A program made the translations under genes and the position numbers. Of a stretch of DNA of 64,000 nucleotides, positions 28,230 through 62,849 are shown one piece after another. The stretch spans positions 806,001 to 870,000 of the forward strand of contig NZ_CP045455.1 of the NCBI RefSeq assembly GCF_030060925.1, given 5' to 3'. Every line of letters begins with the position of its first letter. The stretch's first letter is position 1. This DNA is from Spiroplasma sp. SV19 (GTDB taxonomy: Bacteria; Bacillota_I; Bacilli_A; Mycoplasmatales; Mycoplasmataceae). A model generated the notes under the pieces. It had not been told where the DNA came from. It worked only from the letters and a program-made list of their open reading frames with translations, and ran no database searches.

Positions 28230-28264
28230 AAAATCTTATTAATATTTATTAATAAGATTTTTTT
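28228..28264. terminator. Bidirectional terminator between convergent genes
   Basis: AAATCTTATTAATA / TATTAATAAGATTT perfect stem with T runs on both strands. It serves the plus-strand IMPACT gene and the minus-strand E2-like gene. Confidence 0.92.
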
Positions 28265-31200
28265 ATGATAAAGTAATTAATTCTGGTGATTCCAAGATTT
28301 CTTTTAAACGTGTTAAGAAAATTCCAGCTTCAGCCGCATCAATAATTCGTTGATCAACTGTTAAAGCAATATTCATCATTGAACGAATTACTAATTTATC
28401 TCCTTTAATAACAACTGGCTTACGAACAATACGACCAATCCCAATTACCGCCGAGTTTGGATAAAAAATTGTTGGTGTTGCATTAACAGCACCGACAGTA
28501 CCATAGTTTGCAATCGTAATCGTACTTCCTTGTAATTCATAATCATATAATTCACCTTGACGTAAACGTTCAATTGTTTCTTGAATGTTAATTGCAATTT
28601 GTTTTAAACTCATTCGTTCGGTAAATTTAATCACTGGAATAACTAAACCTTCACTAGTTTCTGTTGCCAAACCAATATGTTGTGAATTTTTAATAACAAT
28701 CTGATTTGTTTTTGAATCATAATATGAATTTAATTTTGGATATTCACTTAATGCTAATGAAACAGCTTTGACAAGAAAACTCATTGTTGAAAAACGAACA
28801 CCTGACTCAGAATTAGCATTTTTTAATTTTCGTTGTTGGTCAATAATTGAAGACATATCAATTTCAGCATTAATTGTCAATGGTGGTACATGTGTTTGTG
28901 ACATAATCATTGACTGAATAGCTGGATATCTTGTTGCTTTAATTTCTTCTCTTGTTTCTAACCCTTGGGGTTCAATATTACTATTTGTATTAACAATGTT
29001 TAAACTATTATTTAATGGTTGAATTAAATTTCCATAAGTATTAGGAATTGAATTTGTTTCACTATCAAACTTTTTAACTTGTAAGTTATTACCACTAGGA
29101 TTATTTTCAATTCCTTGGTTAATCATTTGTTTGTTATTCAAATTAAGTTCTTTTAACATTTCCTTTACCATTGGATCTGGCTCATTCATTGTTTTTAACA
29201 TTTGCTGTATTAGCATATACTGCATCATCTTATCCAAGTTGTTAGCATTATTATGATTCATATTATTATTTGTTTCTCGTAAACTTTGAATTTCACGTAA
29301 CAATTCATTTTGACGATTATTTTGCTCTTGATTTGATAATTTTTCTTTTAAAACAGCTAACTCAACTAACATATTGTTATCACTTGCTGGCTGTTGAACT
29401 GATGGTCACTGATAATTATTTGTAATTGGTGGAACATTAACTGTGCCATGCTTTCCATCTTGGTTTACCTGCCCATATGATGGTTGGTTTTTATTTTGTG
29501 TAGCAAAACCTTGTTGATAATTTGCTGCTGATTCAGCTTGATGTGGATTTTTATTACCATAATATTCATCATCCAACATTTCGTATTGTGATTCAATTTC
29601 TTCAAAAGAAGGACGACGATAGTTGTTAATCTCTCCTAATACTGAATCAACTTCAACATTTCCTTTTGCAATTTGTTCCATTCTTTTTTTAATTAATTCT
29701 CGTTGATTTCTTGTTTTTAAAATTTTTTCACGTTGTCCCCCATCATTTAATTTTTCATATAATCGATCACGATAAGATTTCAGCGGTGAAAAATAGCCTG
29801 GTTTCTTCGGCGCTAATTTTTCTGCCTCGTTAGGATCGACTGTATAACCATCAGCTGAAATATAAACTTCATCAGACAAATCCTCATTCTTAACTTGATA
29901 ATCAGGTTGATCATAGCCATAACTGCTACCTCCACCTTGACTACTTAACATTTCTGGTGTAGCATTTCTTTTAATTAAATCATTCATTCTTCCTTGCACA
30001 ATATTACGTAAAATTTTTGGACGCCCATTTTCATCTAGGAAATCCATAGAACTTTTTGAATTATCACTTTCTAATGATAATTCATGAAAATCATTTTTGT
30101 TATGTAATTGCTGACGACGTTGATTAACAAGATTGCGAAAATTACTATTTTCCGCTTGATTACCAAAAAGGGCTGCTGCATTAGCTGGGGCTTCATCTTG
30201 GTGTTTTGTTTCATTAACTAAATATTTAGCATATTCTTTTGCTTGATTTTCTTCTGCTAATTTTTTTTGTGCAATTGGAACAGCATTAGTAACAATATTC
30301 TGTCCATGTAATTTTGTATTAACATCAAAATTAGGTAGCGCTGCATCAAAACTGTCTTCTTTTATCCTATCATTTAAATTAGGCGTATTAATCATCGTAT
30401 TATCTCTCCCCCCATTTTCTACACTTTGTTTATTTGATTGTTTAATTGTATCAATTGAAGGAATTTTGGCACGGTTATTAATAATATGATCATCATCAAT
30501 TGTTAAATCTTTAAAAGAAAGTCGGCGCGTTTTTTTAGGGCCAAATGTCAATTCTGTTTCATCTCATCTTTTAACCTCAGTTGGTTTATTTTCAAAAGCC
30601 ACCCCTTGGTCAGTTACTGATGTTGATTGAACAGACGCATCAGTCACAAATTTTTGGTCTTGTTCCGCTATATTGTATTGTGACAACTCTATATTATCTT
30701 GTGATTGCATAACATTATTTGCAACTAAACTAGAATTATTAATAACTTGTCTTGGATTATTAAATTCCATTTGTTCTGCCAATGGTTGGTTCAAATTATT
30801 TTGTTGAAAGTTTTGTCCTAAACTTTCATTTGAAAGTGGCTGGTCATCAATTAATTCTGCTTTAGAATCAATGTTCATTTCATTATACTTATGTTGCACT
30901 GATTCAACATTATTTTGCATTTGTTGTTGTTCTAATAATGGTGGAGTAAAAGTCGGATTTAAAGTATCTGGCTTGATGAAATCAGCACCAGAATAATCAT
31001 CTTCTTCAACATCTTTTCATTTTGTTCCAAATTCACCATCTTTTGTTGTTGAAAATGTCACCCCGTTTTTATCTAAGTCACTAAATTCATCTTTTTCAAG
31101 ATGCTTAAAATAATATTTTTCAATTTCAGCCTCAGTTGTTAATAAATGAGCAATAACACTATTCCGTTTAATTTTGCTACCAGCTTTAATAGGTTTAACA

Positions 31201-31352
31201 ATAATTCCATCCATTGGGGCTTTAATAATAACTTCACCATTGTCACTTTCAATTAGGGCGATCCCATCCCCCGCTTTGACAGCAACATCTTGGTATAAGA
31301 ATTCTTTTAAAATTCCCTTTTTTTCTAAAAATGATACTTTAATTTTTTCCAT
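28263..31352 (-). CDS. Giant E2-like protein lacking lipoyl lysine and catalytic histidine
   Basis: 1029 aa in one frame through three TGA tryptophans. Residues 1-75 form a biotinyl/lipoyl-like domain, but the attachment Lys is Asn38 (IESDNGEVI, family ETDK). Residues about 85-790 are a polar, Gln/Asn-rich low-complexity linker with coiled-coil parts. Residues about 800-1029 match the 2-oxoacid dehydrogenase acyltransferase core (THVPPLTINAEIDMSS; GLVIPVI; TITIANYGTVGA), yet the catalytic HRxxDG reads QRIIDA, with Gln1001 replacing His. The protein can be neither lipoylated nor catalytic in the usual way. A structural, self-assembling role is an inference. Confidence 0.88.
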
Positions 31353-49923: not shown

Positions 49924-51249
49924 TTATTCCCCCTTTGCTTTCATATCATAACTATTAACATTATGAATTTCATTTTGTAATTGTCTAAAATTATTCATGG
50001 CGTTTTGCATTGCTAAACCAAATTGCTGTGATAATTCATAAGTTAGTTTTGATAATGAATTATATTTTCAATCAAAAGGTTTATTTATTCCTTCATATAA
50101 ACCTGGCGGATATTTTGGTTTTTTTGCATGTTTTGGTTTAAAGTACAAAGTATTTAAAAAAGCATTAGCTAATCTTCGATACAATCCATCTCCATAAATT
50201 TCTTTTCAATATCATTTATTTGCTTTATCAACTGCTGTTTTATTATTTTCATTGTCTTTAATAAGTTGATCACGATGAGTTTGTAGACGAATCAAATAGT
50301 CATCAACCTGAAATTTTAAATCATCATTGTTTTGAATTGCATAGTCAACAATATTACGAAGTTGTAATTGTTTTTCTGGTGCTGTTTGATATAATTCTGC
50401 ATATTTAAAATGCTTGCCATTTTTATGCACTGGAGCATCTGTTAAATAAGTTTTAATTAAAGTAGTTAATTCATCTGAATTATTTTTAATGTCATTATGA
50501 ACTTGCATCCGAAATTTTGGAGTTATTTCATCTCGTTTTGTTCGTAACTCTTTAAAAAACTCACGTCTATTCTCAACATATTGCTGAGTTTGAAAACGAA
50601 AATACTCATTAGCTTCTTCAGCAATTTTGCCCAATTCACGATATTTAAATTCACTTTTTCCTTTTACTAATGATTTTGGCTCTTTTTCCATAAAACCAAT
50701 ATGAGCATGAATATTTTCAGTATTATCATGAACAACAAATCAATAATCTAAGTTGTTAGTATCTAGTCCGGCCTTACGAAAATACTTTTTAATATTAGAA
50801 TCAATTACTTCAGCAATTTGTTCACGATTATGCAAATTGTATTCTTTTTCAAAATCGTTTGAAAAACTTAATACACAATCCCAGAGTAACTGATTTTCTT
50901 CTAAGTTTTTAATTTTACTACTCATTTCGTTTGCTTCTGTGGATGTTAATTTATTGCCGTTAGCATAAATTCCAGTGTCTTTTTTATCAGCATTTTTTGT
51001 AATTTCATTTATTTGTTTACTATAGTCTTTTAGTGAATCGGTAGTTTTTAAATCTTTTAATTTATCATTATTTAAACAACACTTGCATAATGCTTCTGGT
51101 CTAGTAATATATTTTCAATAGTCCCCACTTTTATAATATTTTCGCTTTGATTGAAATTTCTCACTGTTTTTTGAAAACCGAATTATTTTTCAAATAACCG
51201 GGACTGCTTGATCGGTATGTTCATAACCACTATGTTTATCCAAGTTCAT
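49924..51249 (-). CDS. MobL-like relaxase
   Basis: 441 aa. WKYITRPEAL near the N-terminus is followed by the metal-binding NIHAHIGFMEKEP (H-x-H), as in MobL/MobP relaxases that nick the transfer origin. A long charged helical C-terminal half follows. The presumed catalytic Tyr is among several in residues 30-60 and cannot be assigned. The ATG overlaps the primase gene by 14 bases. GAGGAAG upstream. Confidence 0.78.
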
Positions 51250-52276
51250 ATTCCACTTCCTCATAATATAAATCTTTCAACAATTCAAAGTTTTTGCTTT
51301 GACAAATTTCATCGGCATCTTTGTATTGACTATTATTTTCAATTGTTTTTACTGTTAATCCTGTATTTATTAATAAGTTACTAATTTTTTCACTAGCTAA
51401 TTTTCCGGGATTGTCATTATCGAGAAAAATATTAACTTTATCAAAACGCTGCGATAATAATGAAATTTGATGTTTTGATAAATTAGTCCCCATTAAAGCG
51501 ACCGCTGGAATTTGTTTTTGAAATAATGATATTACATCCATATATCCTTCCACTAAGGTAATTTCTTTGTGTTCTTTTGTTATTTTATTTAAATTAAACA
51601 AAATATTACTTTTAGTAAATACTGGTGTTTCAGCAGTGTTTAGATATTTGATTGAACTTTCATTTGTCATATCACGACCAGAAAAACCAACTACTTGGTG
51701 ATTTGCATTTTTAATTGGAATCATAATCCGATTTTTAAAAACACTAATTAACTCATTGTGGTAATTATATCTAGCTAAATTCGCTGTAATTAACTCTGTT
51801 TTACTATACCCTTTTCGAATTAAAAAATTAAGTAAATCATCATTATTTGCATATCCTAAATCAAATTCATTAATTGTATGATCAACATAGCCTCTGTGAT
51901 GCAAATAATCTTTTGCTTCTTTCCCGGGTAAAGTATTTAAAGTATTTTTAAAAAATAACATGGTTAAATAATTTAACTGATATAACTTGTCCTTTTCGGT
52001 TTGCGGGATTGCCTTTACTTCTTTTGCAATAAAATTTTGCTCTAAATTATATTTTGTAGAAAGTAGTTCTTTTGCAGCATTAATTTGCATATTTTCCATT
52101 TTAGCAACAAAATATTCAACAGAACCACCAATATTACAAACAAAACAACGCCAAACTTGTTTTTCAACAGAAACCGACAAACTAGGATGTGAATCACTAT
52201 GAAAGGGGCAAATTGCGATATAATTCCGTCCTCTTTTTGACAATTTTAAATAATCTCTAAAAACCTCTAACATCAT
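51236..52276 (-). CDS. Short DnaG-like primase
   Basis: 346 aa: CHC2 zinc finger (CPFHSDSHPSLSV, CFVCNIGG), RNA polymerase core domain and TOPRIM (LVEGYMDVISLF, VALMGTNLS, NIFLDNDNPGK). It lacks the C-terminal helicase-interaction domain of chromosomal DnaG (about 600 aa). Likely primes the lagging strand of the transferred element. AAGGA lies 6 bases before the ATG. Transcribed from leader copy A. Confidence 0.92.
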   Translation of the reverse strand: MMLEVFRDYLKLSKRGRNYIAICPFHSDSHPSLSVSVEKQVWRCFVCNIGGSVEYFVAKMENMQINAAKELLSTKYNLEQNFIAKEVKAIPQTEKDKLYQLNYLTMLFFKNTLNTLPGKEAKDYLHHRGYVDHTINEFDLGYANNDDLLNFLIRKGYSKTELITANLARYNYHNELISVFKNRIMIPIKNANHQVVGFSGRDMTNESSIKYLNTAETPVFTKSNILFNLNKITKEHKEITLVEGYMDVISLFQKQIPAVALMGTNLSKHQISLLSQRFDKVNIFLDNDNPGKLASEKISNLLINTGLTVKTIENNSQYKDADEICQSKNFELLKDLYYEEVEYELG

Positions 52277-55709: not shown

Positions 55710-56267
55710 TTAATTTGATAAATTCATAATTAATTTTTGAACGATTACAATTTGAGTATTTATTTTAGCAATATCATTTTGACGATAATTTGTTGGATAA
55801 AGCAACATAATTGCTTTAATGGTTGATAGTGTTGTTAATTTATCTGTTAAAAATCCTAATGCTTTGACTTTAATCGTTGGCTCAATAAAATTACCGTTGT
55901 ACTGTAAAGAAAAAATTTGATACTGACAATCAGATAAAATTACATTATACTGATATAATTCAACCTTAGCTACATCAATCATTTTTTGTAATTCATCACA
56001 AATCAATACACCCCCGCCACAAATTTGAGCAATCATTGCTTGTGCTTTTAATTCATCAATATTTTGTTTTTTATTATCATATTTGACTTTAGTAATATCA
56101 TATAGGTCTTGATAGTATTTTATATCATAAGTAACCGGCGGTTCATCTGGTTTTGATTGGATTCCTTTATCTAGTCCGCTACTATTCTTGTTATTACATG
56201 CGGCAACTGGAGTTACTACTGATATTCCTAAAGTGACAGCACTCAATAAACTTAGTATTTTCTTCAT
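55710..56267 (-). CDS. Lipoprotein, copy 1
   Basis: 185 aa. Lipoprotein signal MKKILSLLSAVTLGISVVTP with lipobox VAAC. The mature part after a proline-rich spacer is helical, with two further cysteines (ICGGGVLICDEL). Its last 120 residues are nearly identical to those of the lipoprotein at 62298-62849, so they are recent duplicates. GGAAGG upstream. Function unknown. Confidence 0.85.
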   Translation of the reverse strand: MKKILSLLSAVTLGISVVTPVAACNNKNSSGLDKGIQSKPDEPPVTYDIKYYQDLYDITKVKYDNKKQNIDELKAQAMIAQICGGGVLICDELQKMIDVAKVELYQYNVILSDCQYQIFSLQYNGNFIEPTIKVKALGFLTDKLTTLSTIKAIMLLYPTNYRQNDIAKINTQIVIVQKLIMNLSN

Positions 56268-62297: not shown

Positions 62298-62849
62298 TTA
62301 TGCTGACAAATTTTTAATTAAATCTTGAACAGTAGAAATTTGAGCACTAATTTTATTAATATCATTTTGGGTATAATTTGTTGGATAAAGCAACATAATT
62401 GCTTTAATGGTTGATAACGTTGTTAATTTATCTGTTAAAAATCCTAATGCTTTAACTTTAATTGTTGGATCACTAAAATTACCGTTGTACTGTAAAGATA
62501 AAATTTGATACTGACAATCACTTAAAATTACATTATACTGATATAATTCAACCTTAGCTACATCAATCATTTCTTGTAGTTCCGCACAAATTAACACACC
62601 CCCATCACAAATTTGTTCAATCATTTCTTTTGACTGTAAATCATCAATATCTTGTTTTGTTATTTTATAATCAACTAAAGTAGCATCATATAAATTTTGA
62701 TAATATTTTATATCATGTGTAATTGGTGGTGGATCTGGATTGGGTGAAATTGATTTTGGTCTTGATAAATTATCATTACATGCCGTTAAACTTGCTGTGC
62801 CAATAACCATCAATCCTAATGTACTAATAATTGATAGGACCTTTTTCAT
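62298..62849 (-). CDS. Lipoprotein, copy 2
   Basis: 183 aa. Signal MKKVLSIISTLGLMVIGTAS with lipobox LTAC; mature part almost the same as copy 1 (55710-56267) from DIKYYQ onward, including LQYNGNF and VKALGFLTDKLTTLSTIK. The signal peptides and spacers have diverged. Downstream of the gene at 62977-63459, separated by a stem-loop. Confidence 0.85.
   Translation of the reverse strand: MKKVLSIISTLGLMVIGTASLTACNDNLSRPKSISPNPDPPPITHDIKYYQNLYDATLVDYKITKQDIDDLQSKEMIEQICDGGVLICAELQEMIDVAKVELYQYNVILSDCQYQILSLQYNGNFSDPTIKVKALGFLTDKLTTLSTIKAIMLLYPTNYTQNDINKISAQISTVQDLIKNLSA

Follow-up and report, generated by a model that had tools for sequence, protein, structure and literature searches.

A pseudo-E2 of Spiroplasma that has lost the catalytic histidine is kept independently of pyruvate dehydrogenase and co-occurs with MreB

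The gene at positions 28263-31352 (minus strand) of the window, which is the whole 64,000-nucleotide stretch of the Spiroplasma sp. SV19 genome that was analysed, encodes a pseudo-E2 protein, hereafter A, that is best read as a multivalent scaffold derived from an E2 and tied to cell polarity or the MreB cytoskeleton, with a probability of roughly 0.5. The reading draws on the loss of the catalytic residue, a predicted E2 fold, strong sequence constraint, independence from pyruvate dehydrogenase (PDH) and co-occurrence with MreB; A would thus be a catalytically dead dihydrolipoamide acyltransferase that belongs to no 2-oxoacid dehydrogenase any more.

The host genome of 1.46 Mb reads TGA as Trp (genetic code 4, Spiroplasma type), and under this code A is one open frame of 1029 aa, in agreement with the preliminary description, which had noted a frame open over 3 kb. 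The frame includes three in-frame TGA codons (W112, W263 and W649) and splits into four ORFs when read with table 11. The protein has a mass of about 116 kDa and a pI of 5.2, and possesses no Cys and no clear transmembrane segment. At its N-terminus lies a lipoyl-like beta-barrel domain (aa 1-80; 31113-31352, minus strand, as are all features of A below), modelled with a pLDDT of about 82 and aligned by hhalign to the lipoyl domain of aceF at E=1e-6; the match of PF00364 to aa 24-70 is weak (1.2e-3, below cut-off). At its C-terminus lies an E2 acyltransferase-type core (aa 798-1029; 28266-28961), matched by PF00198 (2-oxoacid_dh) over aa 799-1027 at 2.2e-65. Alignment with aceF from the same genome confirms that Asn38 (codon 31239-31241) faces the lipoyl Lys of ETDKV and that Gln1001 (codon 28350-28352) faces the His of DHR, the two replacements on which the preliminary description was built. 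Most conserved E2 positions are kept in the core, His excepted. The peripheral subunit-binding (E3-binding) domain PF02817, which this genome's aceF matches at 1.4e-14, was not found in A by Pfam or by profile comparison with the middle region.

The middle of A contains 21% Gln+Asn overall and 31% within a linker at aa 601-797 (28962-29552), which includes a long predicted helix (aa 659-696; 29265-29378) that is a possible coiled coil in the structure model. The huge Gln/Asn-rich linker of the preliminary description therefore stands for this part, whereas aa 340-600 are conserved rather than filler. The conserved central region (aa 341-600; 29553-30332) has no Pfam match, is partly helical in the model and carries up to three copies of a motif close to FR-x-[LIVM][LIVM]-xx-[RK][RMKL]-xx-L (FRxLVxxRRxxL), located by motif scan and profile comparison at positions 405, 448 and 550: R1, FRNLVNQRRQQL (aa 405-416; 30105-30140); R2, LRNIVQGRMNDL (aa 448-459; 29976-30011); and R3, QRELIKKRMEQI (aa 550-561; 29670-29705), which is clear mainly in genus g1, the genus of the window. 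Profile comparison aligns copy 1 with copy 2 (E=1e-6), and copy 3 is weaker. The motif, defined post hoc from the A sequence itself, occurs at 1.97 per 1000 aa in A orthologues versus 0.018 in 483 neighbouring proteins, and is absent from aceF and from B, a further PF00198 protein of this genome. Profile comparison gave no support to the central region being either a hidden E3-binding domain or a domain common to B.

The neighbours of A in the window are a MatE transporter, a UPF0029 protein and a DUF402 protein, and the 64 kb contain no E1 or E3 gene, as previously described. Elsewhere in the window, two lipoprotein-like paralogues (55710-56267 and 62298-62849) with nearly identical C-terminal parts enclose membrane proteins and mobile-element-like genes, and a relaxase-like frame (49924-51342) and a DnaG-primase-like frame (51236-52276) overlap; judged by eye, 49924-52276 resembles a section of an integrated mobile element. 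Outside g1, A is accompanied in many genomes by two uncharacterised protein families with no Pfam match, clusters c2 (L084:6642-7904) and c5 (L084:11074-12336), which occur at 23 and 21 of the loci with A, respectively.

PF00198 matches three places in the host genome: aceF, A and B. The canonical aceF, whose presence elsewhere in the genome had been left to check, is intact, encodes 426 aa in a pdhA-pdhB-aceF-lpd cluster about 230 kb from A, and carries the lipoyl Lys, the DHR motif and the E3-binding domain. B comprises 756 aa with a lipoyl-like domain, a Ser/His-rich middle and LGYNEAVVDVTEA where active E2 has LTIDHRLIDGADGG, and looks like a second dead E2. It lies near the pdh operon (G000:C1:607624-609891; L100:10622-12892, minus strand) and has lost the core His; at its lipoyl-like site, Lys is kept in g1 members, and not in most of g4, g8 and g9. 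The distribution of B in family f1 is nearly that of A, B being missing in g10 and broken in one g1 genome (G011).

Full-length orthologues of A number 38 (850-1075 aa, one per genome) and occur in genera g1, g4, g5, g6, g8 and g9 of family f1; among named Spiroplasma, these include S. phoeniceum P40, a S. phoeniceum MAG, S. poulsonii and a Spiroplasma MAG. The cores are 57-99% identical, and A is found in every related genus that bears MreB, with g10 possessing only shortened forms (533 and 656 aa) that lack the lipoyl-like domain and have R or Q at the site. A second family, f9, contributes two orthologues of 670 and 692 aa, both with Gln. Gln occupies the His position in 39/39 aligned sequences, within LTxDQRIIDAAEAG, and no orthologue has His, let alone Lys and His together. 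At the lipoyl position the same 39 sequences have Asp in 17, Asn in 15, Lys in 3, other residues in 3 and a gap in 1. The three Lys, all in genus g9, lack the usual lipoylation context. The expectation that orthologues would keep both substitutions is thus borne out for Gln and not for the loss of Lys, which is general rather than absolute; the three g9 orthologues rule out Lys loss as a conserved feature, and the conserved change is Gln for His.

In four moderately diverged pairs (G000-G010, G000-G009, G003-G006 and G001-G013), dN/dS of the A core is about 0.02, and that of the active aceF core in the same pairs is 0.02-0.05. The A core, without its catalytic residue, is constrained as tightly as the active enzyme. 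The central region shows about 0.1 and the first linker 0.2-0.6. A sequencing error or a pseudogene is ruled out by the core dN/dS and by the intactness of A in nearly all genomes, the exceptions being G042, where a stop follows the lipoyl-like domain, and G088, where A is fragmented. At the G042 locus (L086), a TAA separates the lipoyl-like domain from the remainder (ORFs of 90 and 857 aa), and the barrel may thus be translated separately or not be needed. On a phylogenetic tree, the cores of A (support 93/90), B (100/99) and aceF (96/98) each form one group, so that A represents one old split from E2 and not repeated decay; the best explanation is that A diverged from pyruvate dehydrogenase E2 before the sampled spiroplasmas separated.

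The distribution of A does not follow that of PDH. In five genomes (G004, G007, which is S. phoeniceum P40, G008, G011 and G012), A is intact although neither a full-length E1-alpha nor an intact aceF is left; remnants are an E1-alpha fragment in G007 and an aceF match with two TAA in G012. All five belong to the genus of the window, and the truncated pdhA of G007 has unrelated genes behind it (L107:7709-8350). G002, whose PDH is intact, falls between G011 and G007 in the tree of A, indicating at least two losses of PDH in lineages that kept A. Conversely, 16 genomes (g3, g7, g11 and g12), none with a Spiroplasma-type MreB, possess E1-alpha and aceF without A, the aceF match of G024 being partial, and presence of PDH and presence of A are unassociated in family f1 (Fisher p=1). 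Because A survives where PDH is gone, a role outside PDH is required, and it is very likely that A is a dead E2-derived protein acting outside the complex.

The distribution of A does follow that of MreB. Spiroplasma-type MreB was defined by a best PF06723 E-value below 1e-100, the genomes without it giving only weak matches (1e-61 or worse). Among the 60 genomes of family f1, A is present in 42/42 with this MreB (two of them with shortened forms) versus 0/18 without it, an association with a Fisher p of 1e-15, a figure that ignores shared descent. In genus g20 of family f9, one genome (G078) has four MreBs and an intact A, a second (G067) has MreBs decaying through stops and an intact A, two (G073 and G083) have neither, and in G088 MreB is absent and A is broken into fragments. 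These last three genomes also have a missing or truncated PDH E2, and f9 alone therefore does not separate PDH from MreB. Over both families, A follows MreB rather than PDH, and A and MreB were lost together at least twice independently; the association rests on few evolutionary events, and the f1 losses may be a single one. With its MreBs in differing states of decay and transposase-like genes around A, genus g20 constitutes a natural series for the loss of a helical cytoskeleton. A search for fibril as a second marker with PF01048 gave only small nucleosidases.

Published work constrains where A could act. A is not among the 16 proteins of the Triton-insoluble fraction of S. eriocheiris (PMC5289999) or the six proteins of the isolated ribbon (PMC9582952), lists that would miss parts of the pole that are soluble, of low abundance or lost. 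MreBs are the known minimal system of the helical swimmers: MreB4 and MreB5 alone confer helicity and swimming on syn3B (PMC9710875), and A is therefore not needed for either. In syn3B cells given the MreB/fibril set of Spiroplasma, the tapered pole and its dumbbell, 'made by unknown proteins', are missing (PMC9710875). A would thus fit polarity or regulation better than force generation.

The core of A, modelled from 37 sequences (pLDDT 86, pTM 0.86), finds its best structural match in the E2 core of pig heart PDH (Z 29.7, 206 residues, 1.5 A), and the retention of the E2 fold claimed in the preliminary description is upheld at the level of the predicted structure. In the full-length model, the linker is mostly below pLDDT 50. 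Inter-trimer contacts in E2 cages are made by the C-terminal tail, and a hydrophobic tail (aa 1021-1029; 28266-28292) with an invariant Pro1023 is kept in A and placed as in cage-forming E2s. The core may therefore self-associate into trimers, possibly 24- or 60-mers, to form a multivalent hub with radiating flexible arms, whose length would reach about 700 residues. Each arm would carry one to three copies of the short, putatively amphipathic Arg-rich helix motif, would terminate in a lipoyl-like domain that bears no lipoate and would serve to dock partners. These most likely belong to the MreB-based helical cytoskeleton or to a cell-pole structure that organizes it, and the odds of such a tie appear evenly balanced. 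That A is a non-enzymatic scaffold of some kind is probable, and the scaffold role first proposed on the grounds that the fold is kept without its chemistry is partly supported: the chemistry residues are gone, aceF lies elsewhere and the role is outside PDH. A more daring version is doubtful, namely that cage-like hubs of A, perhaps together with B, construct or nucleate the dumbbell of the tapered pole; if true, a metabolic cage would have turned into a polarity organelle, the dumbbell being thought to give swimming its direction.

Other roles for an E2-derived protein are less probable. Eukaryotic dead E2 cores act as structural subunits of PDH (E3BP/PDHX; PMC7494870, PMC10156792), and the predicted fold of A matches human E3BP (Z 26.6), however, A lacks the E3-binding domain and the 16 PDH-bearing genomes without it, together with the five in which it outlives PDH, make an E3BP-like function highly improbable; the PDH-less genomes rule A out as a subunit of that complex. 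Similarly remote is the idea that A is still an active acyltransferase whose chemistry has changed, with Gln or some other residue taking the place of His. A new activity would likewise agree with the invariant Gln and the tightly constrained core, but most A orthologues have a lipoyl arm without Lys, and the E2 mechanism needs His as general base, so that A presumably lacks activity.

Two scaffold readings without MreB are unlikely but weigh more than these. The dead core may bind CoA or acetyl-CoA and organize Pta/AckA or report acetyl-CoA, as a scaffold or sensor of this metabolism. The order coaX-coaD-pta-ackA-(membrane protein)-A, with all genes except coaX on the strand of A, is common in genus g8, coaD lies near A in G019 and G051 as well, and the retained E2 positions of the core also count in favour of this reading. 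However, g1 has none of coaX, coaD, pta and ackA near A, the g8 gene order may be left over from a pdh-pta-ack cluster, and the presence of A does not follow PDH. Alternatively, A may be a scaffold of another Spiroplasma-specific process (membrane, chromosome or division) and be associated with MreB by shared descent only, since the losses of both fall on few branches and helical and non-helical genera are separate lineages; we consider this about as unlikely as the CoA reading. The co-decay of A and MreB inside g20, in a second family, argues against it, although PDH E2 is lost there too. The scaffold linked to MreB or cell polarity remains the preferred reading.

A shares with AceF/PdhC (E2p) the order of lipoyl-type domain, linker and E2 core, the C-terminal tail, the core sequence (1b5s, 1.9e-43) and the fold (Z about 28-30), but differs in the absence of the catalytic His (DQRIIDAA versus DHRxxDG), in most cases of the lipoyl Lys, and of the peripheral subunit-binding domain, in its occurrence without PDH and in a middle region of up to about 700 residues where the linker of AceF/PdhC is short. 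With E3BP (PDHX, fungal protein X), A has in common an inactive E2-derived core that would act by structure (PMC7494870, PMC10156792), but E3BP recruits E3 inside PDH, whereas A has no domain to do so and is kept in PDH-less genomes. A precedent in the same bacteria is fibril, a nucleosidase fold put to cytoskeletal use (PMC9710875); its fold differs from that of A, and it is the main ribbon protein, whereas A is outside the ribbon lists. Corynebacterial AceF and OdhA (6zzi, 8p5s; Z 24-28) also place the E2 core fold in another architecture outside the classical cage, but these are active enzymes of 2-oxoacid metabolism, unlike A.

To our knowledge, and in our literature search, the only known role of dead E2 cores is that of PDH subunits (E3BP), and the search found no paper on a Spiroplasma pseudo-E2. 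The conserved central region with its repeated motif, the dead-E2 paralogue B and the link with MreB go beyond the preliminary description. A and B represent two dead-E2 families freed from PDH, of which A, probably masked by its annotation as an enzyme, is under constraint as tight as that on the active enzyme and is retained throughout the spiroplasmas. Both are concrete candidates for the makers of the pole of these helical swimmers, and A may join fibril as another enzyme fold that has taken on a structural role.
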